From NCBI GenBank assembly GCA_026122225.1, contig JANEZZ010002879.1, forward strand, positions 347,556 through 411,555: a stretch of 64,000 nucleotides of DNA, in the 5' to 3' direction. This document shows, one piece after another, positions 1,847-63,671 of the stretch. The position numbers and the translations under genes were made by a program. The notes below the pieces were generated by a model. That model had not been told where the DNA came from, did no database searches, and saw nothing but the letters and a program-made list of their open reading frames with translations. How positions within the stretch are numbered: the first letter of the stretch is position 1; every line of letters begins with the position of its first letter. This stretch comes from Heloderma charlesbogerti. Taxonomy: Eukaryota > Chordata > Lepidosauria > Squamata > Helodermatidae.

Positions 1847-3066
1847 TAGGGATGGACGAAAGGGACTTACCTTGTCCCACATCTTGCTTCGCGGTGGGGG
1901 GGACGTGCTTCGGTTCTCCCCCCGAAGTTCAGGCAAGGGGGGGAGGCGCCCCGCCTCGCCCAGCCAAAATTCAGGCCGGGGGGGAGGCGCCCCATCCCTC
2001 GCCGGCGAAATTCAGGCCAGGGAGGAGCGCCCTGTCTCCCCGGCCGCGAAAAAAAAAGTAAAACACACACACACACACACCCGCGATAGGCTATGTAACG
2101 ATTTGCGTAGCCTATCACGGCTAGATTTCCAAAGTCAGCTGTGATAGGCTACGTAAATCGTCACGTAGCATATCACGGGTGACTTTGGGGGGGGAAAGTG
2201 CGTACGCAAATGGCGGCAGCCCATGGGCGCCGCCATTTGCATTCCTTATTTTGGCACGTCTAGTCTACGTAAAGATTTACATAGACTACGGCGAAAAAAA
2301 GGGCAACGCAAATAGCGTTCCCTTATTTTCGCCGTAGTCTACATAAATCTTTACGTAGACTAGATGTGCCAAAATAAGGAACGCAAATGGCGGTGCCCAT
2401 GGGCCGCCGCCATTTGCGTACGTGCTTTTTTTTTTTCCAAAGTCACCCATGATAGGCTATGTGACAATTAACATAGCCTATCACGGCTGACTTTGGAAAT
2501 CTAGCCATGATAGGCTACGTTAATCGTTACGTAGCCTATCACGGTTTTTTTTTTTCCACTTTTTGTTTCGCGGCCGGGGAGACGGGACGCTTCTCTCCGG
2601 CCTGAATTTCGGCCGGGTGAGGCGGGATGCCTCCCCACCCTCGCCTGAACTTTGGGGGGAGAAGCAAAGCGCCTCCCCCCCACCGCGAATTCAAGCTGCG
2701 TAAAGGTAAGTGACTTTCGTACATCCCTAGATTTACGTAGCCTATCATGGCTGACTTTGGAAATCTAGCCGTGATAGGCTACGTAAATCGTCACGTAGCC
2801 TATCACGGGTGTTTTTTTTTTTTACTGTACTTCTTTATTTTGTAATGGTGGCGGCAGCAGCCGGTCGGGAGACCGGCCGCCGCCCCCGCCGAACCGCCGC
2901 CGAACCTCCACCGGGACCCGCCGCTGAGAGGGACATTCGCCGAAAGTAAGTCCCATCCTGGGGGGGGCGGGGGGCCAGCGGAGAATTTCCCCAACACTTT
3001 CGGGGGGCTGAATGCGTCAGCACTCAGCCTCCCGAAGATTCGTGGAGAAATTCTCCGCCATCCCTA
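1847..3066 (+). mobile_element. Modular palindromic hAT element, alpha/gamma type
   Basis: The element is bounded by TAGGGATG at the left and ATCCCTA at the right and flanked by the exact 8-bp duplication CCTGAGAG (1839-1846 and 3067-3074), the hAT hallmark. The left alpha arm holds TTCGCGGTGGGGG blocks and the right gamma arm holds CGGCGAACC-type GC-rich sequence. Between them lie hairpins centred on TACGTA (for example around 2085-2180), paired AAATGGCGGC blocks (2210-2245 and 2388-2415), and AATAAGG blocks around 2250-2370. It has no transposase. At 1220 bp it is the longest family member here, with the most core modules. Confidence 0.9.
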
Positions 3067-3189
3067 CCTGAGAGCAGCCCACAAATGCTTGCCCACGTCT
3101 GGCTTGCTGCTCTGGCAGCAATGGAAAGCAAGTCTGTCATCACCCTCCTGTTTGGCACCTGATGCACTGACTGCTATGCAGTGCCAAGT

Positions 3190-3560
3190 CTAAGTTGTTG
3201 AGGGCCCTTGGGCGAGACATCCTCCATGCCTCTCCTCCCTCAGTGAGTCTACATTCTCATAGTCATTGTCACCAGCTGCTATTGCTCCTCATCCTCTTTC
3301 TCGTCTTTGCTACTACTTGGTTCTTTGACAGGCAGACAGCCAGTGAGCAAGGAGGCCATGGCATTTACTGCTCCTCCTTCTCACCACAACCATTGTCTGG
3401 ACCAGAGTAAGAGGCAGGAGAACAAGTCGGTTGTAATGGTAAAGAAAGGTACAACTCCAGGGGGCTCTTGTCAGTGGAACCCTGCTGGGGGTCTTAGCCC
3501 TTGGCAACTGTCCAACCATGCCTCCTTTTGGCACCAGCCTTCCATCTATGTTTGAAAGTG
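3190..3560. repeat. Low-copy interspersed repeat, uninterrupted copy
   Basis: This stretch is collinear with 31140-31301 plus 32190-32340. Shared strings include TCAGTGAGTCTAC, TTGTCACCAGCTGCTATT and TACTGCTCCTCCTT. The copy at 31 kb is interrupted by a modular hAT element and this one is not, so it supplies the empty site at about 3352-3361. The nature of the repeat is unknown, and the reading frames in it look incidental. Confidence 0.6.
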
Positions 3561-4488
3561 AGACCCTGAGAACACTGGGAATTGACTTAACTACCTTATC
3601 GTTCAACCAGTGATGGATTGATGGCTGAACCATTAACTTGATCATTCTTTGGTAGTCGGATAGAGCTTCCCTTACTTAATTAATTGTCCTTAGGATGCCA
3701 GGACCTATTTGCAAAATTAACCAAGGCTTCCGGTAACGATCTAATCTCATGCATGGTGAATTTCTTAGGAAATTAAGTCTGGGGACACTATTGACCTAAG
3801 AATAATTGAATCAATATTAATTGAACTTTAGCTCCTAAAGAAATCCATTTTTTTCTACCCACCTGATTGTGGGAAACAGATGGTTGTTGGCAAAATTTGT
3901 GAGATCACTTTTGCGTGCGTTCACTCATAAATCAGTTTTATCCTGTTTCTGCATTAATATGAAATGGTGTGTGTGTGTTTAAAATGGACATAGAATTTCA
4001 CAGTTTCTAAAATACATATTTCTAAATATGTTTTCTCTCAAATGTATTTAAAAATGCATTTTGATATGTTGTTTGAGCCAAGAATTGTGCTAGAAGATCT
4101 GGGAAGCATGAGAGCTGATGGATAGCTCAGGTCCAACCTGGACATTAGCCCAGAAGACGCAGATCATGTCAGTTTGTATCAGAATTCAGAGAGATCAAAT
4201 TCCTCAAGCACCCCTAGAAGACACCCACTGCTCCCAAGCCTGGGCAGTCTTTAAAATACAGTAATGGGTACTAGCCCAGTATGTATTATGTAGACTTTTG
4301 CTAATATGTCTTTTTTACTTGTTCTACAGTGCCTCTCATTCTGTCTCTGCTGATGGGTATCTAGTAAATTCTGTGCAAATGTAGATCACAGGTGTTATCC
4401 ATCTTGAATCTTGGGAGCCATTGGTCCATCACACTTCGTATTGTCTCCTCTGACTGACAGAAATTCCTAGGTCTCAAGCAGACGCACT
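3561..4488. other. AT-rich stretch, no gene seen
   Basis: Around 3950-4260 it contains AAATGCATTTT-type motifs that recur near 5.7, 17.2, 33.0, 46.2, 55.6 and 61.7 kb, probably relics of the AT-rich hAT-like family clearly delimited at 61510-61959. Ends could not be placed here. Confidence 0.35.
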
Positions 4489-5215
4489 GGAGGCTGGTGG
4501 CTCCAATTTCAGTAGGGCTGTGAGCCCACTCTGGGTTTTGTCAGGATTCCCCTGTTGCCTACTGAATGCTCCAATACCGAAATCAACACTCAGACAAAAG
4601 GGCTGCTTTCCAAGGCCTTAATTCCATTTACTCTAATGAGGCATATAGATGCTAATTGCTAGATACTCAGAGAACTACAAAGGAAGAGCCATCAAGGGGT
4701 TCAAAGAGAAACTACGTCAGTTGATCTCCATTTGGGAAAAAGGCAGCAATTCTCTGAACTTAAGGGGTGGGAGGGGAAGATCTCCCCCTCTCCCGTGATG
4801 CTTCTGGGTGCAGCTGTTGACGTTGAACCAATCGGGCTGAACGCCAAAGCATGGCCCCTGCGACCTCTCGCTTGTGCCTGCATCTGTGCCTCCCATCTAA
4901 AAGTTCAGGTTGTCCTTCCCTTTCCACACCTGGTTTGCTGTCACTCCCAGGGATGTGAGAAGGGGGGGGGGTCCCCTCCAGCTGCACCTCTGAAGTCTGG
5001 GAAACGTCCTCCCCCATGAGTTGCCTCTCTTCCTCAGAATCAGAACCGCTTTGGGACTCTATGGGCTCAGATACAACCCGGACAGGTTTCAGTCAGAACT
5101 CTCATGGAGCTATCTGAGGTGCTGAACTCAGTACCTTGGATAGCTCATTTGGAGTTCTTCTGGCTGAAACCCAGAGCAGATTTTAGCCCCACTGAAATTG
5201 GAGCCACCAGCCTCC
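4489..5215. repeat. Long inverted repeat with ~55-bp arms
   Basis: The left arm, 4489-4545, starts GGAGGCTGGTGGCTCC. The right arm, about 5159-5215, is its reverse complement and ends GGAGCCACCAGCCTCC, with CTCTGGGTTT near the inner end of both. About 610 bp separate them. This could be a palindromic DNA transposon or an inverted pair of one repeat. Reading frames inside it show no recognisable protein. Confidence 0.6.
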
Positions 5216-5453
5216 ATTGAGCAGACATCTTTCCAAGACCTGCTAATCTGATGTCCTTCAACTGGAGATGCATCGGATTGGACCTTCTGCTTATGAAGCA
5301 TGTCCTCTGCCTCTCTCCTAGAGCAAAAGCTCTCTTTCCCCCCAAGTGCACGAGTTTCTCCAAGTTTTCATTGGGGATGGGGACCTATTTTACTCAACAT
5401 GAGAGTCATGTGCTTGCACATCTTTTGAACTTGTCATGTATATCTCAATAATC

Positions 5454-5971: not shown

Positions 5972-6727
5972 TAGGGATGTCAAGGAATTCCGCCACGGAT
6001 CTCGGTGAGGCCGAATGCCAGCGCATTCGGCCCCCCGAAATCTGTGGTGGAATGGCGTGCCGCCCCCCTGCCCCCCTGCGGATCCCCCCCCAGGACGAGA
6101 CTTACTGGGGCGGATCTTCCGGGCGGCAGCGGCGGCGGTGGCAGCTGGTCTTCTGACCGGCTGCCGCCGCCGCCATTTGCAGTCTTGTTAAAAAAAAAAA
6201 GATTTGATAGGTTACGTAAAGATTTACGTAACCTATCATGGCTGGGTTTTAAAAAAACAAACAAACACGACGTGATAGGCTACGTAAATCTTTACGTAGC
6301 CTATCATGGCTGGGTGGGTTTTTAAAAACCAAACAAACGGCGTATGCAAATAGTGTCTGCTACGCTATTTGCGTTCCCCTTACTTTCGCCGTCTTAGTCT
6401 ATGTAAATATTTATGTAGATTAAGATGGCAAAAATAAGGAATGCAAATGGCGGTGGCCGTAGCCACTGCCATTTGCGTACGCGGTTTTGTTTTTTTTCTC
6501 CCAGAGCCCTCCGCGGCCGGAAATCTGACTGCGGACGGCTCTGGCATGGCTGGGCCTGGCCGGCTGCTCCGCAGAGCTGCTGCGGAGCACAGCCGGCCAT
6601 GGAGGATTCCGGGGGGGGAGGAATGGAGCGCCTCCCCCCCATCGAGGATTCCGGGGGGAGTGACAGAACGCCTCCCCCCCCTCATGAACATAATCCGCGA
6701 AAGGTAAGTGACTTTAGTACATCCCTC
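5972..6727 (+). mobile_element. Modular palindromic hAT element, beta/delta type
   Basis: Starts TAGGGATGTCA and ends ATCCCTC (last base altered), flanked by the exact duplication TGTCAGAT (5964-5971 and 6728-6735). The left beta arm carries GGCCGAATGCC with its complement and a GGATCTTCC block. The right delta arm carries GGAGCTGC- and GGATTCCGGGG-type sequence ending in GGTAAGTGACTTT. The core has two TACGTA-centred hairpins near 6208-6305 and an AAATGGCGGT...CCATTTGCG pair near 6445-6480. Non-coding. Confidence 0.9.
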
Positions 6728-7798: not shown

Positions 7799-8447
7799 TA
7801 GGGATGGTGGAGAATTTCTCCACAAATCTCTGGGAGGCCGAATGCCAACGCATTCGGCCCCCCAAAATTGGTGGTGAAATTCTCCTCCGCCCCCCCCCCC
7901 AGGATGGGACTTACCTTGTGCGAATGTCCCTCTCAGTGGCAGGTCCCAGCAGCAGTTCGGCGGCGGTTTGGCGGGGGCGACGGTGGCGGCCGGTCTTCTG
8001 ACCAGCTGCCGCCGGCGCCATTGCAAAATAAAAAAGGAAAGTAAAAAAAAAAACAACCAAACACCCGTGATAGGCTATGTAACGATTTACGTAGCCTATC
8101 ACGGCTAGATTTCCAAAGTCAGCCGTGATAGGCTACGTAAATCGTCACGTAGCCTATCATGGGGGACTTTGAAAAAAAAAAAAGCACATACTCAAATGGC
8201 GGCGCCCATGGGGTGCCGCCATTTGCGTTCCTTAGTTTGGCACGTCTAGTCTATGTAAAGATTTACGTAGACTATGGCGAAAATAAGGGCAACGCAAATA
8301 GCGTGGTTTCTTTACTTATTTTTTTCGCAGCCGGGTAGACGGGGCGCCTCCCCCCCCTCACCTGAACTTCGGGGGGAGAAACGAAGTGCCTTCCCCCCAC
8401 CGTGAAGCAAGCTGCGGGACCAGGTAAGTCCCTTTCGTCCATCCCTA
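7799..8447 (+). mobile_element. Modular palindromic hAT element, gamma/alpha type
   Basis: TAGGGATGG...CATCCCTA ends with the exact duplication ATCCCAAG (7791-7798 and 8448-8455). The gamma arm (GAGAATTTCTCC, GGACTTACC) is on the left and the alpha arm (CAGGTAAGTCCCTTTCG) on the right, so its orientation is opposite to 1847-3066. The core has hairpins at about 8068-8162 and one AAATGGCGGCGCCC pair, with fewer modules than the 1.2-kb copy. Confidence 0.9.
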
Positions 8448-9032: not shown

Positions 9033-9944
9033 TAGGAGTGCTCGAAAGTCACTTACCTCGTCTCGCAGCTTGCTTCGCGGTGGGGGGGAGGCACTTCGCT
9101 TCTCCCCCTGAAATTCAGGCCGGGGGGGGAGGTGCCTCGCCTCGCCCAGCCAAAATTCAGGCCGGGGAGGAGGTGCCTCGCCTCTCCTGGCCGCGAAATA
9201 AAAAGTAAAAAAAAAAAAGACCCCGTGATAGGCTACATGACGATTAACATAGCCTATCACGGCTAGATCTGCAAAGTCAGCCATGATAGGCTACGTTAAT
9301 CGGCACGTAGCCTATCACGGGTGACTTAAAAAAAAAAAAAGCGCATATGCAAATGGCACCGCCGTAGGGAGCCGCCATTCGCGTTCCTTATTTGGTCGCT
9401 GTAGTCTACGTAAAACTTTACGTAGACTACGGCGAAAATAAGGGCAACGCAAATAGCGTTGCCCTTATTTTCGCCGTGGTCTACGTAATGTTTACGTAGA
9501 CTACAGCAACCAAATAAGGAACGCGAATGGGGGCTCCCTATGGGGGCCGCCATTAGCCGTACGTGCTTTTTTTTTTTTTTAAGTCACCCGTGATAGGCTA
9601 CGTGCCGATTAACGTAGCCTATCACGGCTGACTTTGCAGATCTAGCCATGATAGGCTACGTTAATCGTCATGTAGCCTATCATGGGGGCATTTTTTTTTT
9701 ATTACTTTTCTTGGAATGACGGCGGCAGCAGCTGGTCAAAAGACCGGCTGCCGCCCCTGCCCCTGTCGAAGCCCTGCCGAACCACCGCTGCGACCCGCCA
9801 CCGGGACCGACATTTGGGACATTTGGACCCAGGGGGGCGGGGGATGGGGGGGCAGAGAATTTCTCCCCGGAACTACTTCGGGGGGCCGAATACATTGGCG
9901 CTTGGCCCCCCAAAGTTTCGGCGAGAAATTCTCTGACACCCCTA
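9033..9944 (+). mobile_element. Modular palindromic hAT element, alpha/gamma type
   Basis: Ends are TAGGAGTG and CACCCCTA. The flanking octamers GAAAAACT (9025-9032) and GAAAAAAT (9945-9952) match at 7 of 8. The left alpha arm has an inward-complement CACTTACCT. The right gamma arm has lost its GTAAGT and has a short duplicated GGGACATTTGG instead. The core contains a complete symmetric series around 9330-9560, with GTAGTCTACGTAAA hairpins flanking AAGGGCAACGC...GCCCTT. Confidence 0.85.
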
Positions 9945-10049: not shown

Positions 10050-10791
10050 TAGGGATGTCAGAGAATTCCACCACGGATCTCAGTGAGGCCGAATGCCAGT
10101 GTATTCGGCCCCCCAAAATCTGTGGCAGAATGGTCTGCCACCCCCCCGCACCCCCGCAGATCCCCCCCGGGACGAGACTCACCTGGGGCAGATCTTACGG
10201 GTGGCGGCGGATCCAGAGGTGGCTGCGGCAGCGGTGGCAGCGGGCGGTCTTCCGACCGGCTGCCGCCGCCGCCATTTCCAAGCTTGTGGGAGAAAAAAAA
10301 AAAGACGTGATAGGCTACGTAAAGTTTTACGTAGCCTATCATGACTAGGTTTTAAAAAAAAGGAAAAAAAGACGTGATAGGCTACGTAAATCTTTACGTA
10401 GCCTATCATGGTTTGGGGTGGGCTTTAAAAAAAAAACGCATACGCAAATGGTGGTGGCTACGGCTGCCACCATTTGCGTTACTTATTTTTCTTTGTCTTT
10501 TTTTTTTACAGAAACGTGATAGGCTACGTAAAAACTTACATAGCGTATCACATCTCTGTAAAAAAAAGACAAGACAAGACTGCAAATGGTGGTGGCGGCA
10601 GCCAGTCAGAAGACCAGCCGCCGCCGCCGGAGCTTCCGCCTCCCGGAACATCCGCCCCAGGTAAGTCTCGTCCCGGGGGGGGATCCACAGGGGGGTGGGG
10701 GGGCAGGCCATTCTGCCACAGAGTTTGGGGGGCTGAATGCACTGGCATTCGGCCTCACCGAGATCCATGGCAGAATTCTCTGACATCCCTA
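10050..10791. mobile_element. Homotypic beta/beta hAT copy without target duplication
   Basis: Both ends are of the beta class: TAGGGATGTCAGAGAATTCC at the left and its near complement at the right, each with its own GGCCGAATGCC hairpin and GC-rich GGATC arm. The flanking octamers AAAACATG and ACCTTTTC do not match. All other complete copies pair unlike ends and nearly all have a recognisable duplication. The likeliest origin is recombination between two inserted copies. A right-arm GGTAAGTCTCG is kept, and the left donor is GGTGAGT. Confidence 0.75.
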
Positions 10792-12728: not shown

Positions 12729-13343
12729 ATTCGGGGTGGGTTTAAAAAAAAAAAACGCGTACGCAAAGGGTGGCGGCTATGGCCGCCGCCATTTGCATTC
12801 CTTCTTTTTACCATCTTAATCTATGTAAATATTTATGTAGACTATGATGGCGAAAATCACGAGGAAAGCAAATAGCGTAGCAGGCACTATTTGCGTCCCC
12901 TTTTTATTCACCGTTTTAGCCTACGTAAAGATTTACGCAGATAAAGACGGTAAAAAGAAAGAACATAAGGGACGAGACTTATCTGGGGCGGATCTTCCAG
13001 GTAGCGGCGGCTCCGGCGGCCGTGGCAGCCACAGGGGGCAGTCTTCCAACTGGCTGCCGCAGCTGCCATTTCCAGGCTTGTGAAAAAAAAAAAGACATGA
13101 TAGGCTATGTAAAGATTTACGTAGCCTATCATGGCTAGATTTAAAAAAAAAGAATAAAAGACGTGATAGGCTACATAAATCTTTACGTAGCCTATCATGG
13201 TTTGGGGTGGGTTTTAAAAAAAAATGCGTACGCAAATGGCGGTGGCTATGGCTGCTGCCATTTCCGTTCCTTCTTTTTACCGTCTTAAGCTACGTAAATA
13301 TTTACGTAGACTATGACAGCAAAAATTAAGGGGAACGCAAATC
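12729..13343. mobile_element. Truncated modular hAT core, both ends missing
   Basis: Core modules are typical: GCGTACGC, a GGTGGCGGC...GCCGCC pair, AAATATTTA hairpins and GATAGGCTA hairpins at about 13097-13200. The terminal TAGGGATG sequences are absent on both sides, and a beta-type arm (GGGCGGATCTTCC) sits internally at about 12970-13060 directly against core sequence. It is a rearranged or doubly truncated copy. Confidence 0.75.
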
Positions 13344-13527: not shown

Positions 13528-13808
13528 TAGGGATGGCAGAGAATTCCGCCACGGATCTCAATGAGGCCGAATGCCAGTGCATTTGCCCCCCCAAAATCTG
13601 TGGCAGAATGGCCTGCCACCCCCCCGCCACCTCGCGGATCCTCCCCAGGACGAGACTTACCTGGGGTGGATCTTCCGGGCGGTGGCGGCTCCAGCGGCAG
13701 CTTCGGCGGCGGCGGCTACAGCAACTGGTCTTCCAACTGGCTGCTGCCGCTGCCTTTTGCAGTCTGGAGTTGTTTTTTTGTTTTTTTTACAATACGTGAT
13801 AGGCTACT
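13528..13808 (+). mobile_element. Right-truncated modular hAT element, beta end
   Basis: Starts TAGGGATGGCAGAG with a full beta arm (GAGGCCGAATGCC, GAGACTTACCTGGGG, GGCGGCGGC). It stops a few bases into the first hairpin (ACGTGATAGGCTAC) at about 13808. The rest of the core and the right end are missing. Confidence 0.8.
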
Positions 13809-13906: not shown

Positions 13907-14705
13907 TAGGGATGTACAAAATTGGCCTTACCCGGCTCTGCCGGGTTCCGCTGGGGGGGGAGGCGCTCTGTCCCTCCCCCCGGAATCCTCGCCGGCCAGC
14001 CGGCTCTGCTCTGCAAGGATTCCACGGAGCCGCCGGCCGGCTCCGCCGGCAGCCGGACATCCGGCCGCTGGCTAGCAGGGACGCAAATGGCAGCGGCCAT
14101 AGCCGCCGCCGTTTGCGTCCCTGTAGTCAGCCGTGATAGGCTAGGTAAATCTTTACGTAGCCTATCACGTCTGACTTAAAAAAAACCCAAAGTGCGCATA
14201 TGCAAATGGCGGCGGCTATGGCTGCCGCCATTTGCGTTCCTTATTTTGGGCCATCGTAGTCTACGTAAATATTTACGTAGACTAAGACGGCGAAAATAAG
14301 GGGAACACAAATAGCGTAGCGGACGCTATTTGCGTTCTCCCTTATTTTTGCAGCCTTAGTCTACGTTAATATTTACGTAGACTACGATGGCCCAAAATAA
14401 GGAACGCAAATGGCCGCAGCCATAGCCGCCGCCATTTGCGTACACGTGTTGTTGTTGTTTTTTAAAGTCAGACATGATAGGCTATGTAAGTCTTTACGTA
14501 CCCTATCACGTCTTTTTTCTTTTTCTTTTTTAAACACTGGAAATGGCAGCAGCAGCCGGTTGGAAGATCCGCCCCAGGTAAGTCTTGTCCCGGGGGTGGA
14601 TCCGCGGGGGGGCGGGGGGGCAGGCCGTTCCGCCACATTCGGTGGGCTGAATGCACTGGTATTCGGCCTCACTGAGATCCGTGGCAGAATTCTCTGCCAT
14701 CCCTA
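13907..14705 (+). mobile_element. Modular palindromic hAT element, delta/beta type
   Basis: Ends TAGGGATGTACAAA and CCATCCCTA. The flanks CACAGAAG and AACAAAAG match at 6 of 8. The left delta arm has GGCGCTCTGTCC and paired GCCGGCCGGC-type blocks. The core is clean: a GCAAATGGC...GCCGCC pair at 14080-14125, a hairpin at about 14130-14170, the AAATATTTACGTAGACTA series at 14255-14390, and the mirrored modules up to 14515. The right beta arm carries CAGGTAAGTCTTGTCCCGG. Confidence 0.85.
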
Positions 14706-15318: not shown

Positions 15319-16228
15319 TAGGGATGTACGAAAGTTCCACCACGGATCTCAGAGAGGCCGAATGCCAGCGCATTCAGCCCCCCAAAATCGGTGGCAGAAC
15401 GGCCCGCCCCCCCAGACGGGACTTACCTTGGGTGGATCTTCCTGGTGGCAGCAGCTGCAGTGGCAGTGGTTCGGCGGCGGTTCGGCGGTGGCTGCTGCGG
15501 CGGCCGGTCTTCCGTCCGGCTGCCGCCGCCGCCATTTCCAGGTTAAAACAAAAAACAAAACAAAAAACGTGATCGGCTACATAAAGATTTACGTAGCCTA
15601 TCACGGCTAGATTTTAAATAACACCGTGATAGGCTACGTAAATGTTTACATAGCCTATCATGGCTGACTTAAAAACAAAAACAAAAAAACATGCATACGC
15701 AAATGGCGGCGGCCATGGCCGCCCCATTTGTGTTCCTTATTTTGGCACGTCTTAGTCTATGTAAACATTTACATAGACTAAGACAGCGAAAATAAGGGGA
15801 ACTCAAATAGTGTAGACTCTACACTATTTGTGTTCCCCTTATTTTCGCCGTCTTAGTCTACGTAAATGTTTACGTAGACTAAGACGTGCCAAAATAAGGA
15901 ACGCAAATGGTGGCTGCCGTGGCCGCCACCATTTGCGTATGCGCATTTTTTTTTTTTTTAATCAGCCATGATAGGTTACATAAACATTTACGTAGCCTAT
16001 CACTGCTGACTGCAGGGACGCAAACGGCGGTGGCTACGGCTGCCACCATTTGCATCCCTGCTAGCCAGCGGCCGGATGTCCGGCTGCTGGTGGAGCCAGC
16101 TGGCAGCTCCGCAGAATCGCTGCGGAGCACAGCCGGCTGGCCAGAATTCCAGGGGGGGAGGAACGGAGCACCTCCCCCCCTACCATCTGCATAATCCCCA
16201 AAAGGTAAGTGATTTTTGTACATCCCTA
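15319..16228 (+). mobile_element. Modular palindromic hAT element, beta/delta type
   Basis: TAGGGATGTACGAAAG...CATCCCTA with flanks GCACGTAG (15311-15318) and GCACATAG (16229-16236), 7 of 8 identical and differing only at a CpG. Both arms keep an outward GGTAAGT. The core at 15567-16010 is symmetric: hairpins, an AAATGGCGGCGGCC pair, GTCTTAGTCTA hairpins, and a GTGTAGACTCTACAC centre near 15812-15826. Confidence 0.9.
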
Positions 16229-18438: not shown

Positions 18439-19039
18439 TAGGGGTGCACGAAACCCACTTACCTGGTCTCACAGCTTTTCATGGTGGGGGGGAGGCACTT
18501 CACTGCTCTCCCCCCGAAGTTCAGGCCGGGGGGGGGAGGCTTCCTGCCTCGCCCGACCAAAATTCAGGCCGGGGGGGAGGCTTCCCGCCTCGCCCAGCCG
18601 AAATTCAGGCCGGGGAGGAGGCGCCTCGCCTCGCCCGGCCGCAAAATTAATTTTTTTAAAAAAAAACGCCCCCGTGATAGGCTACGTGACGATTAACGTA
18701 GCCTATCATGGCTGACTTTGCAAATCTTGCCATGATAGGCTATGTTAATCGTCACGTAGCCTATCACGGGGGCGTTTTTTTTTTTTTTTAGTTTTATTGG
18801 AATGGCGGCTGCGGCAGCCGGTCGAAAGATTGGCTGCCGCCCCCACCCCTGACGAAGACCCGACGAACCGCCGCCGGGACCCACCGCCGGGAGGGACATT
18901 CGGCAAAGGTAAGTCCCGTCCCGGGGGCGGTGCGGGGGTGGGGGGGGCGGAGAATTTCTCCCCGAAACTTGTTCGGGGGGCCGAACATGTTGGCGCTCGG
19001 CCTCCCGAAGTTTCGGGGAGAAATTCTCCGCCAACCCTA
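18439..19039 (+). mobile_element. Modular palindromic hAT element nested in composite, alpha/gamma type
   Basis: TAGGGGTGCACG...CCAACCCTA flanked by the exact duplication CCTGAGAC (18431-18438 and 19040-19047). The related arm at 12024-12031 has a single CCTGAGAT in the same context, so the pre-insertion state is visible. Both ends keep GGTAAGT facing outward. The core is reduced to two GATAGGCTACGT hairpins (18674-18770) without the AATAAGG modules, making it a short-form member. Confidence 0.95.
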
Positions 19040-20622: not shown

Positions 20623-21502
20623 TAGGGATGGCAGAGAATTTCGCCATGGATTCCAGTGAGTGGCCATGGAATCCATGGTGGAACGGACTCCTGTCCCCCG
20701 CCCCCCCATGGAATCCCCTGGATGGAATTTACCTGGGGTGGATACGGCGGATTCGGTGGCGGTGGCGGTCCTGTGGCCGCCATTGCCGACCCTCAAGCTG
20801 TGATAGGCTACGTAAGAACTTATGTAGCCTATCACGGCTAACCCCCTCCCAAAAAACAGCGTATGCAAATGGTGGCTATGGCGGCCGTCATTTGCATTCC
20901 CTATTTTTCGCCGTTCTAGCCTACGTAAATATTTACGTAGGCAATTATGGTGGGAAAAAAGGGGACTGCAAATAGCGTAGTGGGTGCTATTTGCGTTCTT
21001 TTTTTTTCTGCTATTTTATCGTACGTAAATATTTACATAGGCTTTTATGGGAAAAAAGAAAAGAAAAGCAAATAGCGCCCACTACACTATTTGCGGTTCC
21101 CTTTTTTCGTCATAATTGCCTACATAAATATTTACGTAGGCTAGAACGGCGAAAAATAGGGAACGCAATTGGCGGCCACCATAGCCACCACCACTTGCAT
21201 ACGCCGTTTTTTGGGGGGGGGCATGCCGTGATAATCTACATAAGTATGTATGTAGCCTATCATGGCAGCCTGGAAGGATGCAAATGGCAGCTGCCATTTG
21301 CATCCAAAGCAGCCCATCTGCGGCCGGCCCTGGCTGGCAGCTCCGCGGAGCTGCCGCAGAGCAGAGTCAGCTGGGCAGGATTCCGGGGGAGAGGACCAGA
21401 TCGCCTCCCCACCGTCGAGGATTCTGGGGAGAGGGATGGAGTGCCTTCCCCCCCCCAGTGGATGCCCCAATCAGAACCAGGTAAGTGATTCGTACATCCC
21501 TA
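20623..21502 (+). mobile_element. Modular palindromic hAT element nested in composite, beta/delta type
   Basis: TAGGGATGGCAGAG...CATCCCTA flanked by GTTTTTTC (20615-20622) and GTGTTTTC (21503-21510), 7 of 8. Uninterrupted relatives (12150-12175 in reverse complement, 48.03 kb) read GGTTTTTTTCTTTC or similar, confirming the site. The core contains a long symmetric series with AAATATTTACGTAGGC hairpins. The beta arm is divergent (GGATTCCAGTGAGTGGCC). Confidence 0.9.
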
Positions 21503-21899: not shown

Positions 21900-22460
21900 T
21901 AGGGATGTATGAAACACTTACCTGGTTTCGTCCAGGGACATCTGCGGTGGGAGGGAGGCACTCCATCCCTCCCCCCAAAATCCTTGATGGGGGGGAGGTG
22001 ATCCTTTCCTCCAACCCGGAATCCTGCCCAGCCTGCTCCGCTCCACAGCCAGGACGTGGTGCCCCTGGCCGGGCCAACCTGCAGTGGGGTCTCCAGCTGC
22101 TGCCGGGCTGCTGCAGACACAAATGGTGTCCTGAGTAGGGGATGCCATTTGCATCCCTATGGTAGCCCATGATAGGCTACGTAAATATTCACATAGCTTA
22201 TCACAGGCTACCATAGGAACACAAATGGCGTCCCCTACTCAGGACGCCATTTGCATCTGCAGCAGCCCGGCAACAGCCAGAGCTGCTGCCGCTGCCGGAG
22301 GCACCACCGGAGCCAGAGCCACAGCCAAGTAGGCTCCGTTTCGTGGGGCTTTCGCGGGGTGGTGGGGCAGGTTGCTCCATTCTGCCACAGATTCCGAGGG
22401 GCCAAATTCACTGGAATTCGGCCCCCCTGGGATCCGTGGTGGAATTGTCTAACACCCCTA
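21900..22460 (+). mobile_element. Short modular hAT element, delta/beta type
   Basis: TAGGGATGTATGAAAC...AACACCCCTA. It has only one internal hairpin, GTAGCCCATGATAGGC...GGCTACCATAGG (22152-22215), flanked by ACAAATGGTGTCC and its complement. The same short architecture occurs at 36310-36838. The right flank is CTAAGGCA (22461-22468). On the left, CTAAGGCTGCA (21889-21899) equals that octamer with a 3-bp insertion, so it seems to have used the same target octamer as the composite beside it. Confidence 0.75.
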
Positions 22461-40542: not shown

Positions 40543-41365
40543 TAGGGATGTACGAAAGTCACTTACCTTTTCGAAGGGTGACATTCGCGGTGGGGGGGAG
40601 GCACTCCGTCCCTCCCCCCCAAATTCTGGCCGGGGGGGAGGCGCTCCATCCCTCCCCCCCCCGAATCCTGGCCGGCTGGCTCCGCAAATGGCAGCAGCCA
40701 TAGCCGCCACCGTTTGCATCCCTGCAGTCAACTGTGATAGGCTACGTAAATGTTTACGTAGCCTATCATGGCTGATTTAAAAGAAGAAAAAAAACAACGT
40801 GCATATGCAAATGGTGGCGCCCATGGGCGCGGCTATTTGCGTTCCTTATTTTGACACGTCTTAGTCTATGTAAACATTTACGTAGATGCTACGCTATTTG
40901 TGTTCCCCTTATTTTCGGCCTCTTAGTCTACATAAATGTTTATGTAGACTAGGACGTGTCAAAATAAGGAACGCAAATGTAAATGTTTATGTAGACTAAG
41001 ACGTGTCAAAATAAGGAACGCAAATGGCAGTGCCTATGGGCGTCGCCATTTGCATACGTGCATTTGTTTTTTAAAAAAAATCAGCCGTGATAGGCTACGT
41101 AAATCTTTACGTAGCCTATCATGTTTGTTTGTTTGTTTGTTTTACTGTTAATGGTGGCGGCGGCAGCCCGTTGGAAGACCAGCCGCTGCCGCACAGCTGC
41201 CGAACTGCCATCGGAGCCACCGCCGCCAGGAAGATTCGCCCAAGGTAAGTCCCGTCCCGGGGGGGGGGCAGGGGGGGCAGACCGTTTCGCCACTGATTTC
41301 GGGGGGCTGAATGCGCTGGCATTCGGCCTCCCCGAGATTCATGGTAAAATTCTCTGACATCCCCA
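40543..41365 (+). mobile_element. Modular palindromic hAT element, delta/beta type
   Basis: TAGGGATGTACGAAAG...CATCCCCA, exact duplication GCTAGTCC (40535-40542 and 41366-41373). Both outward GGTAAGT motifs are intact. A ~48-bp segment (AAATGTTTATGTAGACTA, AGACGTGTCAAAATAAGGAACGC) is duplicated in tandem around 40930-41025, breaking the core symmetry and showing module gain by slippage or fold-back repair. Confidence 0.95.
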
Positions 41366-44300: not shown

Positions 44301-45375
44301 AACAAAGAGTTTTGTGGTGCTTTAAAGACTAACACATTTATTTATTCTGTCATAAGCTTTTGTGGACACTGTCTAAGGATGTACGAAAGTCACTTACCAT
44401 TTCGCGGATTCATTCACGGTGGGGGGGGAGGCGCTCTGTCCCTCCCCCCAGAATCCTGCCCAGCCGTCTCCACTCCGCAGTGATTCCACGGAGCTGCCGG
44501 CCAGCTCCGCCCGCAGCCAGACATCCGGCTGCTGGGCAGCAGGGATGCAAATGGCGGCAGCCGTAGCCGCCGCCACTTCAGTCTCTGTAGTGAGCCATGA
44601 TAGGCTACGTAAGTATTTATGTAGCCTATCATGGCAGGCTTAAAAAAAAAAAATGCATACGCAAATGGCGGTGGCTACGGAGGCCGCCATTTGCATTCTG
44701 TATTTTTCGCCGTTTTAGCCTACGTAAATATTTACATAGGCTATTACGGCGAAATAAAGGGGAATGCAAATGACGTAGTGGGCGCCATTTGTGCTCCCCC
44801 TTTTTTTGCTGTAACAGCCTACGTAAATATTTATGTAGGCTAAAATGGCGAAAAATACAGAACGCAAATGGCAGCCGCCGTAGCCGCCACCATTTGCGTA
44901 CGCATTTTTTTTTTAAGCCTGTCGTGATAGGCTACATAAATACTTACCTAGCCTATCATGGCCTCCACAGGGATGCAAAAGGTATCCCTGCGTTAGCCGT
45001 GATAGGCTACGTATGTATTCACGTAGCCTATCATGGCCGTGAAGAAGAAGAAGAATGGCGTGAAGAAGAAGCGAATGGCGGCCGCAGGGCGGCCGCCATT
45101 CGCAACTCGGCGCCGACGGGAGCAGGTAAGTGCTCAGTTTTGTGCAACTTTTGTGGGGGGGCGGGGGCTTCCTCCCACCTGACTTTCGTGGGTTGGGGGG
45201 GCAGGGGCTTTGCACTTGCATTCGGCCTCACCAAGATCCGTCGCGGAATTCTCTGACATCCCTAACACTGTCTACTTCATCAGATGCATGATGATACATG
45301 ACAGTGTCCATGGAAGCTTATGCCAAAACTAATAACTGTGTTAGTCTTTGTGGTGCTACAAGACTCTTTGCTGTT
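44301..45375. mobile_element. Palindromic repeat split by a modular hAT element
   Basis: The left half (44301-44373: CAAAGAGTTTTGTGGTG, AAGACTAACACA, CATAAGCTT, TGGACACTGTC) is the inverted counterpart of 45302-45375 (GACAGTGTCCATGGAAGC, TGTGTTAGTC, TACAAGACTCTTTG). The inserted element lies at 44374-45264. The uninterrupted repeat would be roughly 185 bp, a palindromic DNA transposon or similar. Its class is not established. Confidence 0.65.
44374..45264 (+). mobile_element. Modular palindromic hAT element, delta/beta type
   Basis: TAAGGATGTACGAAAG...CATCCCTA with the exact duplication ACACTGTC (44366-44373 and 45265-45272). Both ends keep outward GGTAAGT. The core at 44596-45040 is long, with five hairpins and GCAAATGGCGG pairs. 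A GAAGAAGAAG simple repeat near 45041-45072 interrupts the right GC-rich arm. Confidence 0.95.
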
Positions 45376-46734: not shown

Positions 46735-47658
46735 TAGGGATGGGGGAGAATTTCTCCCCGAAACTTCGGGGGGCCGAATGCCAACGCATTCGGTCCTCCA
46801 AAGGTTCGGGGAGAAATTCTCTGCCACCCCCCTGCCACCCCCCCCCGGGATGGGACTTACCTTTTACGAATGTCGCTCCCGGCGGCGGGTCCCGGCGACA
46901 GTTCGGCAGGTCTTTGTCAGGGGCGGGGGCGGCAGCCGGTCTTTTGACCGGCTGCCGCCACCGCCATTACAAGAAAAGTAAAAAAAAACAAAAACGCCCC
47001 TGTGACAGGCTACGTAACAATTAACGTAGCCTATCATGGCTAGATTTGCAAAGTCAACCGTGATAGGCTACCTTAATCGTCACGTAGCCTATCACGGGTG
47101 ACTTTAAAAAAAAAAAAAAGCGCGTACGCTAATGGCGGCCCCCATAGGGAGCCGCCATTCGCGTTCCTTATTTGGTCCCTGTAGTCTACATAAAAATTTA
47201 CGTAGACTACGGCGAAAATAAGGGCAACGCAAATAGCGTTGCCCTTATTTTCACTGTAGTCTAAGTAAATCTTTACGTAGACTACAGGGACCAAATAAGG
47301 AACGTGAATGGAGGCTCCCTATGGGGGCCGCCATTTGCGTACGTGCTTTTTTCTTTTATTTTTTAAAGTCACCTGTGATAGGCTACGTGACGATTACCAT
47401 AGCCTGTCACGGTTGACTTTGCAAATCTAGCCGTGATAGGCTACGTAAATCGTTACGTAGCCTATCATGGGGCTTTTTTCTTTTTTTCTTTTGAAGTTCA
47501 TGGCCGGGGAGATGGGGTGCTTCTCCCTGGCCTGAATTTCGGCCGGGCGTGGCGGGAAGCCTCCCCCCCGGCCTGAACTTTGGGGGGAGAAGCGAAGTGC
47601 CTCCCCCCTACCGTGAAGCAAGCTGCGAGACCAGGTAAGTGACTTTCGTACATCCCTA
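46735..47658 (+). mobile_element. Full-form modular palindromic hAT element, gamma/alpha type
   Basis: TAGGGATGGGGGAG...CATCCCTA, exact duplication ACATATAC (46727-46734 and 47659-47666). Both ends keep outward GGTAAGT. The core at 47004-47470 is symmetric about AAGGGCAACGCAAATAGCGTTGCCCTT (47220-47246 region), flanked by GTAGTCTA hairpins and GGTCCCTG/CAGGGACC blocks: a palindrome of palindromes. Confidence 0.95.
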
Positions 47659-49118: not shown

Positions 49119-50670
49119 AGCTTTCTGAATGTACATCTGTAAGTCCAGAGAACTCCACTAACCTTTCAGAGTTCTTTGAGAGTGGCAGTAAACATGTGGA
49201 CAGAGTAGGCATCGTTTACTTGGACTTCCAAAAGGCTTTTGACAAAATCCCTCACCAAAGTAGGGGTGGACGAAAGTCACTTACCTTTTCTCGCAGCTTG
49301 TTCGCGGTGGGGGGGAGCGCTTCGCTGCTCCCCCCGCGAAGTTTAGGCCGGGGGGGGAGGCTTCCCTTCTCGCCCAGCCGAAATTCAGGCCGGGGGGGAG
49401 GCTTCCCTTCTCGCCCGGCCGAAATTCAGGCCGAGGAGGAGGCTTCCCGCCTCACCCGGCCACGAACACGAAAGTAAAAACAAAAAACAAAAAACGTCCC
49501 CTGATAGGCTATGTGACGATTCACGTAGCCTATCATGGCTAGATCTGGAATGTCAGCCATGATAGGCTACGTGAATCATCATGTAGCCTATCACGGGTGA
49601 CTTAAAAAAAAAAAAAAAAGCCCGAACGCGAATGGCAGCCCCCATAGGGAGCCGCCATTCGCGTTCCTTATTTAGTTGCTGTAGTCTACGTAAATGTTTA
49701 CGTAGACTACGGCGAAAATAAGGGCAATGCTATTTGCGTTGCCCTTATTTTCGCCGTAGTCTACGTAAAGATTTACGTAGACTACAGCCACCAAATAAGG
49801 AACGGGAATGGCGGCTCCCTATGGGGGCCGCCATTATCCGTACACACTTTTTTTTTTTTTTTTAAGTCACCCGTGATAGGCTACGTGACGATTCATGTAG
49901 CCTATCACGGCTGACTTGGCAAATCTAGCCGTGATAGGCTACGTGAATCGTCACGTAGCCTATCAGGGGACGTTTTTTTTTTTTCTTTCATTGCAATGGC
50001 GGGGGCGGCAGCCGGTCGAAAGACTGGCTGCCGCTCCCGCCCCGCTCGAACACCGGACGAAACGCCAACTGGACCCGCCGCCGGGAGGGACATTCAGGGA
50101 AGGTAAGTCCCATCCCAGGGGGGGTGCGGGGGGCGGGGGGCGGAGGATTTCTCCCCGAAACTTGTTCGGGGGGCCGAACACGTTGGCGCTCGGCCCCCCG
50201 AAGTTTCGGGGAGAAATTCTCCGCCATCCCTACACCAAAGACACCTGAGCGAACTTAGCAGTCATAGAATAAGTTGACTGGTCCTCTTATGGATCAGTAA
50301 CTGGTTAAAGAGCAGAAGGTAGGAATAAACAGTAAATTATCCCAATGAAGGGAAGTAAAGAGGGGTCCACAGGGATCTGTATTAGGGCCAATGCTTTGCA
50401 ACCTGTTTATATATGATCTGGAATTAGGAGTAAGCAGCAAAGTGGCCAAGTTTGCTGATGATACCAAATTATGTAGGGTGGTAAAAACAAAAAGGGATTG
50501 TGAAGAGCTCCAAAAGGATATCTCCAAACTGGGAGAATGGGCATCCAAATGGCAAATGCAGTTCGATGTAAGGAAGTGTAAAGTGATGCACGTTGAACAG
50601 AATGCTAGAATAGATGGACCTTTGGTCTAATCCAGCAGGACTCTTCTTATGTTCTTACATTGGGCAACTA
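49119..50670 (+). pseudogene. CR1-superfamily LINE fragment split by a hAT element
   Basis: The left part encodes FFESGSKHVDRVGIVYLDFQKAFDKIPHQ, around reverse transcriptase motif A. After the insertion, 50241-50630 encodes broken frames and then LFIYDLELGVSSKVAKFADDTKL with an intact FADD box, followed by ELQKDISKLGEWASKWQMQF. Both halves belong to one copy interrupted at 49261. The reverse transcriptase has several stops and shifts between the two boxes. The end near 50670 (CTTCTTATGTTCTTA) resembles a LINE 3' end. Confidence 0.85.
49261..50232 (+). mobile_element. Full-form modular palindromic hAT element inside LINE, alpha/gamma type
   Basis: TAGGGGTGGACG...CATCCCTA with the exact duplication CACCAAAG (49253-49260 and 50233-50240). 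Both ends keep outward GGTAAGT. The core at 49500-49970 is highly symmetric, with its centre at about 49730 (AAGGGCAATGC...GCCCTT) between GTAGTCTACGTAAATG and GTAGTCTACGTAAAG hairpins. It disrupts a LINE reading frame exactly, so the pre-insertion state can be inferred. Confidence 0.95.
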
Positions 50671-50834: not shown

Positions 50835-51494
50835 TAGGGATGTACGAAAGGTACTTACCTTCCGCGGATTATTGATGGTGGGCGGGGGAGGCGTTCCATT
50901 CCTCCCCCCCCCCAGAATCCTGGCCAGCTGGCTGTGCTCCGCAGGGATTCTGCGGAGCCAGCAGCCGGACGTCTGGCCGCTGGCTAGCAGGGACGCAAAT
51001 GGCGGTGGCCATAGCCGCCGCCGTCTGCATCCCTGTAGTCAGCCATGATAGGCTACATAAATGTTTACGTAGCCTATCACAGCTGACTTAAAAAAAAAAA
51101 AGCACATATGCAAATGGCGGCGTCCACGGCCGCCACCATTTGTGTACGCACGTTGTTGTTGCTTTAAGTCAGCCGTGATAGGCTACGTAAACATTTACGT
51201 AGCCTATCACAGTTTTTTTTTTAACTTAGCCGTGATAGGCTACGTAAATCTTTATGTACCCGATCACTTTTTTTTTTTTAACTGGAAATGGCGGCGGCGG
51301 CAGCCGGTCGGAAGACCAGCCACCACAGCCGCCGCCGCCGAACTGCCACTGCAGCCGCCGCCGACAGGAAGATCCGCCCCAGGTAAGTCTTGTCCCGGGG
51401 GGGTGGCAGACCATTCCGCCACCGATTTCGGGGGGCCGAATGCACTGGCAGTCAGCCTCCCTGAGATCCGTGGCAGAATTCTCTGACATCCCTA
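50835..51494 (+). mobile_element. Modular palindromic hAT element, delta/beta type
   Basis: TAGGGATGTACGAAAG...CATCCCTA, flanks CCTAGTTC and CCTAATTC (7 of 8). Both ends keep outward GGTAAGT. The core is reduced: hairpins at about 51044-51085, 51173-51212 and 51230-51266 and one GCAAATGGCGG pair. AATAAGG modules are absent. Confidence 0.9.
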
Positions 51495-52568: not shown

Positions 52569-53224
52569 TAGGAATGTCAGAGAATTCCTTCACAGATCTC
52601 GGTGAGGCTGAATGCCAGTGCATTCAGCCCCACGAACTCCGTGGCGGAGCGGAGCCCCCCTCCCTCCCACCCCACGAAAGGCTCGCAAAATGGGACACCT
52701 ACCTGCTGCCATTCACACAGTTTTGCGAATGGTGGCCGCAGCCGCCATTCGCTTCTTCATTATAGCCATGATAGGTTATGTAAATACTTACGTAGCCTAT
52801 CACGGCTAATGCAGGGACACCATTTGGATCCCTGCGGAAGCCGTGATAGGCTGTGTAAGTATTTACATAGCCTATCACAGCAAAAAAAAAGAGGGAACGC
52901 AAAGGGCGGCAGCTACGACGGCTGCCACGACGGCTGCCATTTGCGTTCTTTTTTTTTTTTGGCCGTGATAGGCTACATAAATATTTATGTAGCCTATCAT
53001 GGCAAAAGAGAGGGGTGCAAATGGCGGTGGCTACGGCAGCCACCATTTGTGTCCTTGTGCAGGCTGCCCAGCAGCTGGATGTCTGACTGCGGACAGCCCC
53101 GGCCAGTGGCTCTGTGGAATCACTGCAGAGTGGAGCTGGCTGGAGAGAATTGGGGGGGGGGAGCACCTCCCCCCCACCGTGAATGTCACCCTTCGAAAAG
53201 GTTAGTGATTTTTATACATCCCTA
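52569..53224 (+). mobile_element. Modular palindromic hAT element, beta/delta type
   Basis: TAGGAATGTCAGAG...CATCCCTA with the exact duplication CAAATTTG (52561-52568 and 53225-53232). The left arm is the shortened beta form also seen at the right of 37474-38314. Three hairpins lie at 52765-53003, with GGACACCATTTGGATCC and a locally repeated GACGGCTGCCA. The donors are altered to GGTAGGT at the left and GGTTAGT at the right. Confidence 0.9.
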
Positions 53225-53551: not shown

Positions 53552-53860
53552 CTAGGGATTAGGGATAGATGAAATTCACTTACCTGGTCCGGCAGCTTGC
53601 TTCACGGTGGGGGGGGGAGGCACCCCATTCCTCCCCGCCAAAATTCTGGGTGGGGGGGAGGTGCCCCATCCCTCCCCACCGAAATTCTGGCCGGGGGGGA
53701 GCGTCCCACCTCTCTGTCTGCGAAAGTTCTTCTCCTGCCAGGACACAAATGGCGGTGGCCGTAGCCGCCGCGGTTTGTATCCCTGGCCTGCAGTCAGCCG
53801 TGATAGGCTACATAAATCTTTACATAGCCTATCATGACTGACTTTGGAAAAAAAAAACGT

Positions 53861-53898
53861 ACGCAAATGGCGGCGCCCATGGGCGCCGCCATTTGCGT
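53861..53898. repeat. Perfect 38-bp palindrome, left core block
   Basis: ACGCAAATGGCGGCGCCC and its exact complement meet at CCCATGGG. Each half contains AAATGGCGGC, which resembles the vertebrate YY1 binding consensus. Confidence 0.95.
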
Positions 53899-54039
53899 TC
53901 CTTATTTAGGCCCGGGAAGTCTACGTAAAGATTTACGTAGACTACGGCGAAAATAAGGGCAACGCTATTTGCATTGCCCTTATTTTTGCAGTAGTCTACG
54001 TAAATATTTACGTAGACTACCCGGGCCCAAATAAGGAAT

Positions 54040-54073
54040 GCAAATGGCGGCGCCCATGGGCGCCGCCATTTGC
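54040..54073. repeat. Perfect 34-bp palindrome, right core block
   Basis: A second copy of the 53861-53898 block in mirror position about the core centre at 53967, so the core is symmetric at two scales. Its left outer edge reads ATGCAAAT, an octamer created where the left block still has ACGCAAAT. Confidence 0.95.
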
Positions 54074-54431
54074 GTATGCGCTTTTTTTTTTCAAAGTCAG
54101 CCGTGATAGGCTACGTAAAGATTTACGTAGCCTATCATGGTGTTTTTTTGAAAATCTAGCCATGATAGGCTACGTCAAGATTTACAACATTTGTTGTTTG
54201 TTTGTTTTACCTGGAAATGGCAGCGGCGGCACCCGGTTGGAAGACTGGCCACCACCACCAAACCGCCACCGGGAGCCGCCGCTGCCAGGGATATTCGCCA
54301 AAGGTAAGTCCCATCCCGGGGCGGGTACTGGGGGGCAGTCCATTTCTCCACCAATTTCAGGGGGCCAAATGTGTTGGCATTCGGCCTCCCGGAGATTCGT
54401 GGAGGAATTCTCTGACATCCCTACTAGGGAT

Positions 54432-56762: not shown

Positions 56763-56804
56763 TGTAAAGAACAATATTGTTTAGGAACCTGGAATGTCAG
56801 ATCA

Positions 56805-62948: not shown

Positions 62949-62974
62949 CAAAAAACTAGGCATGTATGGAAGTC

Positions 62975-62983
62975 ACTTACCTG
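62975..62983 (-). promoter_or_regulatory. Splice-donor-like CAGGTAAGT, left end
   Basis: It matches the vertebrate 5' splice site consensus (MAG|GTRAGT) on the minus strand, so it would splice out of the element to the left, 19 bp from the terminus. Function is inferred from sequence only. Confidence 0.5.
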
Positions 62984-63550
62984 TTCGCAGATTATGTTGA
63001 TGGTGGGGGGGAGGCGTTCCATCCCTCCCCCCCTGAATCCTGGCCAGCCGGCTCCGCTCTGCAGGGATTCTGCAGAGCCACCGGCCGGCTCCACCAGCAG
63101 CCAGACATCCAGCCCCTGGCTAGCAGGGACGCAAATGGTGGTGGCTGTAGCCACCGCCGTTTGCGTCCCTGCAGTCAGCCATGATAGGCTATGTAAATGT
63201 TTATGTAGCCTATCATGTCTGACTTAAAAACAACAACAAGCGTACACAAATGGCAGCGGCCACGTCCGCTGCCATTTGCGTTCCTTATTTTGGCACGTCT
63301 TAATCTACGTCAAGATTTACGTAGACTAAGACGGCGAAAATAAGGGGAAAGCAAATAGCGTGGTGGACGCCATTTGCGTACGTGCGTTGTTGTTGGTTTT
63401 TTAAGTCAGACGTGATAGGCTACGTAAACATTTACATAGCCTATCATGGTTTGTTTGTTTTTAATTGGAAATGGTGGCGGCGGCAGCTGGTCAGAAGACT
63501 AGCCGCCGCCACACCACCACTGCAGGCGCCGCCGCCCGGAAGATCCACCC

Positions 63551-63559
63551 CAGGTAAGT
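63551..63559 (+). promoter_or_regulatory. Splice-donor-like CAGGTAAGT, right end
   Basis: The same consensus on the plus strand, facing out of the right end about 105 bp before the terminus, directly after a GC-rich block. About 37 of 52 termini I checked by eye keep an exact outward GGTAAGT. Confidence 0.5.
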
Positions 63560-63671
63560 CTCATCCCGGGGGGGGCAGGCCATTCCACCACCGATTTTGG
63601 GGGGCCAAATGCACTGGCATTCAGCCTCCCCAAGATCCATGGCGGAATTCTCTAACATCCCTACAAAAAAC

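Follow-up and report, generated by a model that had tools for sequence, protein, structure and literature searches.

The closest described systems to the repeat family analysed here, which crowds a 64,000-nucleotide stretch of the Heloderma charlesbogerti genome (contig JANEZZ010002879.1, positions 347,556 to 411,555; the whole of this stretch is hereafter called the window), are the hAT transposons of the Ac family (Hermes, hobo, Tol2 and Ac). These are marked by an 8-bp target-site duplication (TSD) of the form nTnnnnAn, which is stated for Hermes (PMC10368747) and used as a hallmark of the Ac family, hobo included (PMC8961557), by a transposase with a BED finger and a hAT dimerisation domain, and by short imperfect terminal inverted repeats (TIRs) with AAGT sites adjacent to the tips (PMC10368747). 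The same traits recur in the system described here, which comprises a very large number of small elements and a rare autonomous hAT element (the helper) in the same genome. The helper differs from Ac-family elements in its length (8.4-11.4 kb, compared with the 2.5-5 kb given for hAT elements in PMC8961557) and in the presence of an extra Myb/SANT-like frame on the opposite strand.

Partial parallels are offered by several foldback or miniature elements. To judge from its title, hATpin is likewise a non-autonomous hAT family with long hairpins; it is from plants rather than a vertebrate. It was reportedly presented by Moreno-Vazquez in 2005 as a plant hAT with stable secondary structure, resembling miniature inverted-repeat transposable elements (MITEs), and would be at least one precedent for a foldback hAT MITE. 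The Drosophila element Mar is a hAT-derived MITE whose copies far exceed the autonomous ones, but it is short, belongs to the Buster family and resides in a fly. Galileo, also from Drosophila, shares the long foldback structure, but is a member of the P superfamily, with a P rather than a hAT transposase.

Non-autonomous hAT families accompanied by an autonomous element are thus familiar, while the layout as a whole (unlike ends, a nested foldback core, a minisatellite, CpG retention and a ~10-kb helper with extra frames) could not be matched to a described system. No description of the family emerged from full-text literature searches, in which its end strings occurred in one paper, on cow milk transcripts; it may already carry a name in a repeat library. 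Overall, we consider it quite probable that the small elements form an Ac-type non-autonomous hAT family with unlike ends, moved in trans by the rare helper or by a close relative of it.

Copies in the window and their insertion sites

Element ends were detected with profile hidden Markov models (HMMs) for two end types, A and B, trained on the window's own ends. Inward-facing A/B pairs delimit 24 copies of 529-1220 bp (mean 820 bp; 19,668 bp summed), and the end strings TAGGGATG and CATCCCTA occur 31 and 26 times, respectively, where base composition would predict about one of each (a ~30-fold excess). Together with partial copies, located by blastn with 18 library copies taken from other parts of the genome, the family covers 21,613 bp (33.8%) of the window, in good agreement with an initial annotation, made from the sequence alone, that put it at 21-22 kb or about a third. 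Where 25 complete copies were counted there, 24 are paired here, and a possible 25th (10050-10791) has two B ends and unmatched flanks; of the ends said to be shared, an exact TAGGGATG start is present in only 19 and an exact CATCCCTA end in only 14 of the 24 copies.

The 8-bp flanks of these copies are identical in 16 cases (13 had been counted originally), differ by one mismatch in four, by two in two, and by five and eight in one copy each. Exact identity is confined to this length (0/24 at lengths 5-7 and 9-12) and is absent between flanks of different copies (0/552 pairings), which sets the octamers clearly apart from random pairs of sites. Exact TSDs also flank 14 of 21 copies at other loci and both helper copies that were read across both flanks. 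Of the 32 exact TSDs pooled over the window, the other loci and the helpers, 18 carry T at position 2 and 15 carry A at position 7 (pooled p 2e-5), as in the Ac-family pattern nTnnnnAn, compared with T at position 4 in nine and A at position 5 in five for the alternative nnnTAnnn. The latter is the target consensus of Buster elements.

Empty sites were sought by joining the flanks of each copy minus one TSD, for the 24 copies in the window and 21 copies in hAT loci. A through-match was obtained for 20 of the 21 locus copies, and for 16 of them one or more matches crossed the junction without a gap; these loci had been picked for their hAT transposase bodies, so that copies of the same element act as each other's filled and empty sites. 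Among the window copies, through-matches were found for 6 of 24, gapless at the junction in four. These empty sites confirm insertion. A tblastn search of the window for transposase reading frames, with the helper transposase and the frame upstream of it as queries, gave no match at E<=1e-3, as expected for MITE-like, non-autonomous elements. The absence of any transposase, as originally reported, is therefore true of the window, but not of the genome, in which a hAT transposase partner with the same A end is present.

The elements and their parts are listed below in window coordinates (strand in brackets, with a dot where none is assigned).

1847..3066 (-), element with the A end at left and an extra inverted A end at 2729; exact TSD CCTGAGAG
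5972..6727 (+), element with the B end at left; exact TSD TGTCAGAT
7799..8447 (+), element; exact TSD ATCCCAAG
8737-11079, apparent older outer element; outer flanks CTTGGAAG/CATGGAAG, 1 mismatch
9033..9944 (-), element, apparently nested in the older one at 8737-11079; TSD with 1 mismatch
10050..10791 (.), copy with two B ends and unmatched flanks
12734..13342 (.), partial copy, found by blastn with the 18 non-window copies
13528..13765 (+), partial copy, B end
13907..14705 (-), element; TSD with 2 mismatches
15319..16228 (+), element; TSD with 1 mismatch
18439..19039 (-), element inside an older repeat, of which window position 11.99 kb is an empty copy; exact TSD CCTGAGAC; gapless empty site
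20623..21502 (+), element; TSD with 1 mismatch; gapless empty site in the window
21900..22460 (-), two-ended (A and B) element; unmatched flanks, 5/8 mismatches
23839..24806 (+), element; TSD with 2 mismatches; gapless through-match at window 56.4 kb
26077..26333 (+), partial copy, A end
26610..26704 (+), partial copy, B end
27246..28050 (+), element; exact TSD GGTGGAAT
28074..29045 (+), element; exact TSD TGTGAAAT
29450..30337 (+), two-ended (A and B) element; 8/8 mismatches between the flanks at zero offset
31302..32181 (+), element; exact TSD GTGCTGGC; gapless through-match in the window
36310..36838 (+), element; exact TSD CATTGAGG
37474..38314 (-), element with a 104-bp palindromic tandem unit (array 37646-38058); exact TSD TTTCTGTG
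40543..41365 (-), element; exact TSD GCTAGTCC
44374..45264 (-), element; exact TSD ACACTGTC
46735..47658 (+), element; exact TSD ACATATAC
49261..50232 (-), element closest to the helper 3' tail (91.3% over 543 bp, blastn); exact TSD CACCAAAG
49261..49320 (-), A end of element 49261-50232, with AAGTCACTT at bp 14-22
49309..49461 (.), 41-bp G-rich minisatellite, 3.7 units, in element 49261-50232
49483..49984 (.), foldback core of element 49261-50232
49483-49620 / 49847-49984, outer foldback arms of the same element, 92%
49631-49730 / 49736-49835, its inner foldback arms, 94%
50133..50232 (-), its B end with a terminal hairpin; the predicted fold pairs 84% of the first 100 nt
50835..51494 (-), element; TSD with 1 mismatch
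52569..53224 (+), element; exact TSD CAAATTTG
53560..54423 (-), element; exact TSD CTAGGGAT
62957..63663 (-), element; exact TSD CAAAAAAC

Anatomy, abundance and age of the small elements

The A end reads TAGGGATGTACGAAAGTCACTTACC (longer reading TAGGGATGTACGAAAGTCACTTACCTGG), and the B end TAGGGATGTCAGAGAATTCC followed by a hairpin (longer reading TAGGGATGTCAGAGAATTCCGCC, with relatives such as TAGGGATGGCGGAGAATTTCTCC). Both tips carry TAGGGATG(T), a short TIR as is typical of hAT elements, and beyond ~9 bp the two ends are unlike. From B to A, a copy consists of the B tip with ~95 bp of self-folding sequence, the foldback core, in many copies the G-rich minisatellite with its 41-bp unit, and the A end. 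Fold prediction places 60% or more of the B end's first 100 nt in base pairs in 22 of the 24 copies (a count made without a shuffle control), and the arms of the foldback core measure 75-145 nt with 80-95% complementarity; for the core of element 49261-50232, the prediction is a single hairpin of ~530 nt. The term palindromic, originally applied to the elements, is hence appropriate for the core and the B-end hairpin, but not for whole copies. The observed/expected CpG ratio of the copies is 0.89 when pooled (0.42-1.07 singly). It is 0.21 for the remainder of the window, 0.43 for a BovB-like frame and 0.46 for one copy of the helper.

A point absent from the initial annotation is that the A and B ends appear, from their sequence, to be functionally unlike. 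Within a set of 42 copies (24 from the window and 21 locus pairs, minus three pairs with 4 or 5 flank mismatches), AAGTnACTT occurs near the A tip in exact form in 21, and AAGT/ACTT motifs at A ends reach 1.43 per 60 bp vs 0.32 after shuffling (4.5-fold). The most conserved inner block, AGGTAAGT in the transposase sense, is present ~19-26 bp from the tip in 33 of the 42 copies, conservation being 86-90% at positions 19-26, 69-76% at positions 16-18 and 36-71% at positions 27-45. According to PMC10368747, the paired BED fingers of Hermes bind an AAGT quasi-palindrome that spans bp 11-27 at one of its ends; Tol2 carries AAGTACTT immediately past its TIR. Given the excess of AAGT/ACTT at A ends and its lack at B ends, the A end looks, by analogy, like the BED-loaded end.

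Genome-wide counts, recommended in the initial annotation, gave 108,468 A ends at <=3 mismatches in this 2.3-Gb genome and 20,345 exact occurrences of the A-end 26-mer (none for the reversed-pattern control in either search). Calibrated on the window plus 193 kb of hAT loci, in which the pattern (<=3 mismatches) has 47 matches and the HMM detects 60 A ends, the number scales up to ~139,000 A ends, which with 820 bp apiece would make up ~5% of 2.30 Gb, a rough estimate as the window and the hAT loci are non-random samples. The third-of-window density is accordingly right for the window and does not extend to the genome. In fact, the window has 17 A-end matches vs 3.0 expected at the genome rate (Poisson 2e-8; 8e-4 after multiplication by 36,000 windows), and the 46 exact matches on the first 6.5 Mb of contig C1 are clustered (variance/mean of 6.2 in 500-kb bins). 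The window is one of the dense local patches. The exact 26-mer was found at no place in viral contigs, and hence there was no sign of a viral carrier there.

The last 60 bp of the 42 copies have a mean identity of 75%, a mean difference of ~25%. On the other hand, the decay of TSDs (16/24 and 14/21 exact) corresponds to a difference of ~5% within a TSD pair, or ~2.5% substitutions per copy since insertion. The gap between the divergence of the ends and the decay per copy suggests several subfamilies spread over time rather than one burst. Overall, the original view of a modular, non-autonomous hAT family at very high copy number is supported, but a single burst, as the word "explosive" suggests, is not favoured.

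The helper and an older autonomous family

A search of the same genome with the PF05699 (hAT dimerisation domain) profile yielded 871 candidates, of which 150 were scored, all past the cut-off; none was found in 14 control genomes. Twenty of the 150 loci were fetched. Ten of them (L017-L026) make up a young family whose longest shared stretch is 92-98% identical to L024. The A end lies on the 3' side in nine; the tenth stretch stops at a contig end. Of three young loci extended upstream, two showed the 5' end TAGGGATGTCAGAGAAATTCTCTCGAAAG. These two helper copies have exact 8-bp TSDs (GTTAGCCA, 10,039 bp; AAAAAAAG, 9,465 bp), and six copies with both ends located span 8.4-11.4 kb, insertions and deletions included, the 5' end being taken from the genome-wide matches and the intervening stretch partly unread in four of the six. 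The helper 5' end itself occurs at <=3 mismatches at 181 places in the genome (control 0). Among 100 listed matches, 80 are exact. At least 50 are followed on the same strand, after 3-9 kb (median 5.7 kb), by one of the 150 scored dimerisation-domain places, with none upstream and none on the other strand. Tandem repeats at the 5' side of helper loci vary in number between copies (L019:520-755, L020, L022, L025), and the L029+L019 copy carries a short repeat of the CTCGAAAGTGAAATGGG type at its 5' end.

The helper transposase is an 879-aa frame with Dimer_Tnp_hAT (PF05699, 1e-16) and zf-BED (PF02892, 4.4e-5) domains, and its best match among solved structures (PDB) is Hermes (3.5e-15). Compared with the older family described below, the pooled ratio of nonsynonymous to synonymous substitutions (dN/dS) is 0.53 in this frame and 0.62-1.10 in the other frames. 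The closest proteins among 7,990 candidates scored are squamate SCAN/KRAB-BED-hAT proteins (Sceloporus undulatus LOC121921799, and others from Paroedura, Eublepharis and Sphaerodactylus), at 36-42% identity over 82-95%. Unlike the helper transposase, they are 1206-1430 aa long and carry SCAN in three of four and KRAB in two, and they are probably host fusions or members of other families. The lizard and gecko proteins P0004-P0006 join SCAN (together with KRAB in two) to BED-hAT and are perhaps domesticated fusions.

A Myb/SANT-like frame of 153 aa (L021:1910-2368, + strand of the locus; Pfam 1.3e-12) lies antisense to the transposase. It is open in most of the young copies examined and also present in older ones, its dN/dS of 0.46 is the lowest of its six frames, and its substitutions by codon position are flat (89/83/93); no relatives were found in a protein search. 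A Myb/SANT-like partner frame is known from Harbinger rather than hAT elements, and its status as a second gene is only weakly shown by these sequence comparisons. The adjoining 156-aa frame showed no constraint, and a 235-aa frame upstream of the transposase has no Pfam match.

Another group of loci (L009-L016, L027 and L028) represents an older autonomous family, ~83-91% identical to L024 in long stretches. Its 3' end is different, ending in ...GAGCACAATTCGTACATCCCTA, where the similarity between copies stops (five copies). All 24 window copies match the 3' tail region of the helper (E<=1e-4), 18 of the alignments reaching the last 3 bp, and in the closest small copies the shared 3' tail, with its foldback and minisatellite, extends over ~540 bp. 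As judged by alignment, then, this tail is common to the young helper and the small elements and absent from the older autonomous family. The search for an autonomous hAT element with the same ends, proposed in the initial annotation, thus succeeded for the A end, whereas on the B side only ~18 bp are shared. The bodies of the young helpers have a mean identity of 96.6% (36 pairs) vs 90.4% for their last 210 bp, which is at most suggestive of tail exchange, in one direction or the other, between small elements and helpers; the minisatellite could explain the tail diversity.

Possible traces of the larger elements were also noted in the window: helper-like DNA at 60000-60129 (72%) and 32473-32599 (87-92%), either remnants or a shared repeat, and a DNA-level match to the 3' end of the older family at 11789-11920. 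A second, older non-autonomous family has left traces at 18186-21888 (or 22460) and from 11789 to ~12714; it has inverted arms, hosts nested copies of the main family, and its end TAGGGATGTACGAATTGTGTACC resembles the 3' end of the older autonomous family.

Competing explanations and other features of the window

In the proposed trans-mobilisation, the A (3') end would offer a subterminal AAGTnACTT-type site to the BED fingers of the transposase, the B (5') end would be short and run into a hairpin, and hAT cut-and-paste would insert the elements into 8-bp nTnnnnAn-type targets. The transposase would be supplied in trans by the ~8.4-11.4 kb hAT element or a close relative. Helper and small elements have in common the outermost ~18 bp on the B side and the whole A end; the closest copies share the ~540-bp tail as well. 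From this shared sequence we infer that the helper transposase moves the small elements, and from the analogy with Hermes and Tol2 that its BED domain would bind AAGTnACTT. Several observations weigh against this explanation. The B ends share only ~18 bp with the helper 5' end, so that some other element, perhaps an extinct one, may be the true helper, and for six of the 24 copies the alignment to the helper is confined to the core. The exact AAGTnACTT is missing from 21 of 42 A ends, and B ends show no AAGT/ACTT enrichment (0.43 vs 0.35). The flanks of 21900-22460 and 29450-30337 do not match, and a third helper copy (L029+L019) gave no clear 5' boundary. It is conceivable, if on balance doubtful, that the small elements are moved by a different, unsampled hAT family with a B-hairpin 5' end, and that the helper shares its 3' tail by descent or end exchange. 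The divergence of B ends from the helper 5' end past ~18 bp, the partly separate history of the tails implied by their lower identity (90.4%, with 96.6% for the bodies), the other 3' end of the older autonomous family and the scoring of only 150 of 871 dimer-domain candidates all speak for such a family. However, the best match of a helper tail is another helper tail in six of nine cases (the exceptions being L024, whose tail is closer to a small element, and L020 and L021, which match M49261 at 98% vs 97% mutually), the minisatellite may simply make the tail evolve faster, and helper and small elements agree in the A end as well as in the outer 18 bp on the B side.

Other readings fare worse. 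The block AGGTAAGT, the consensus 5' splice site, stands in the transposase sense beside a CpG- and G-rich tract, and the A end might have been retained because it serves as a splice donor or promoter directed outward, as its occurrence in 33 of 42 copies, the 86-90% conservation of positions 19-26 and the pooled CpG ratio of 0.89 would allow. The block overlaps, however, the AAGTnACTT transposase-type site, which lies at the same distance from the tip in Hermes and Tol2 (PMC10368747). Since a BED-type site explains its conservation more simply, we have set this improbable reading aside. An assignment to Galileo-like foldback elements of the P superfamily would account for the foldback layout, and P elements also make ~8-bp duplications, but it is hardly tenable for a family with nTnnnnAn targets, whose partner encodes a hAT dimerisation domain and a BED finger and has Hermes as the best solved relative. 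As for ectopic copying by recombination or segmental duplication instead of transposition, tandem arrays and palindromes can expand by recombination and the window is dense; the TSDs, on the other hand, differ from copy to copy and the empty sites are precise, which refutes it for TSD-bearing copies and leaves it next to no credence overall.

If the trans-mobilisation by the helper or its relative is correct, one vertebrate genome would hold a two-component system of >100,000 small elements, an autonomous lineage of intermediate age and a helper that is both young and rare. As its ends, targets and empty sites are defined, it would lend itself to direct tests of how a small element outcompetes its helper (end asymmetry, foldback core, CpG retention), and it would add to the hAT elements a large one whose second frame is Myb/SANT-like. 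A more speculative proposal, which we rate as rather unlikely, is that the foldback, CpG-rich and G-rich tail would act as a methylation-resistant, transposase-loading end, spread by end capture between small and large elements. It derives from the excess of small elements over the helper (hundreds-fold), their retained CpG ratio of 0.89 and the presence of such a tail in the youngest helpers in place of the older 3' end. The tail would then be what made the family win, and the helper in this system would encode a Myb/SANT protein as well.

The remaining features of the window are mostly retroelements. The BovB-like frame mentioned above (56763-59597, + strand) is a BovB/RTE-like open frame of 945 aa with endonuclease and reverse transcriptase domains, 82% identical over its whole length to a Podarcis muralis protein, with relatives from Varanus and Bos also scoring high. 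Together with the squamate proteins closest to the helper transposase and the 5S rRNA-like match given below, it points to a squamate as the probable host. Fragments are represented by a reverse-transcriptase frame of 256 aa at 33907-34674 (- strand) and an endonuclease frame of 196 aa at 25051-25638 (+ strand). A marginal 5S rRNA-like match at 43279-43393 (40.8 bits vs a threshold of 38) is possibly part of a short interspersed element.

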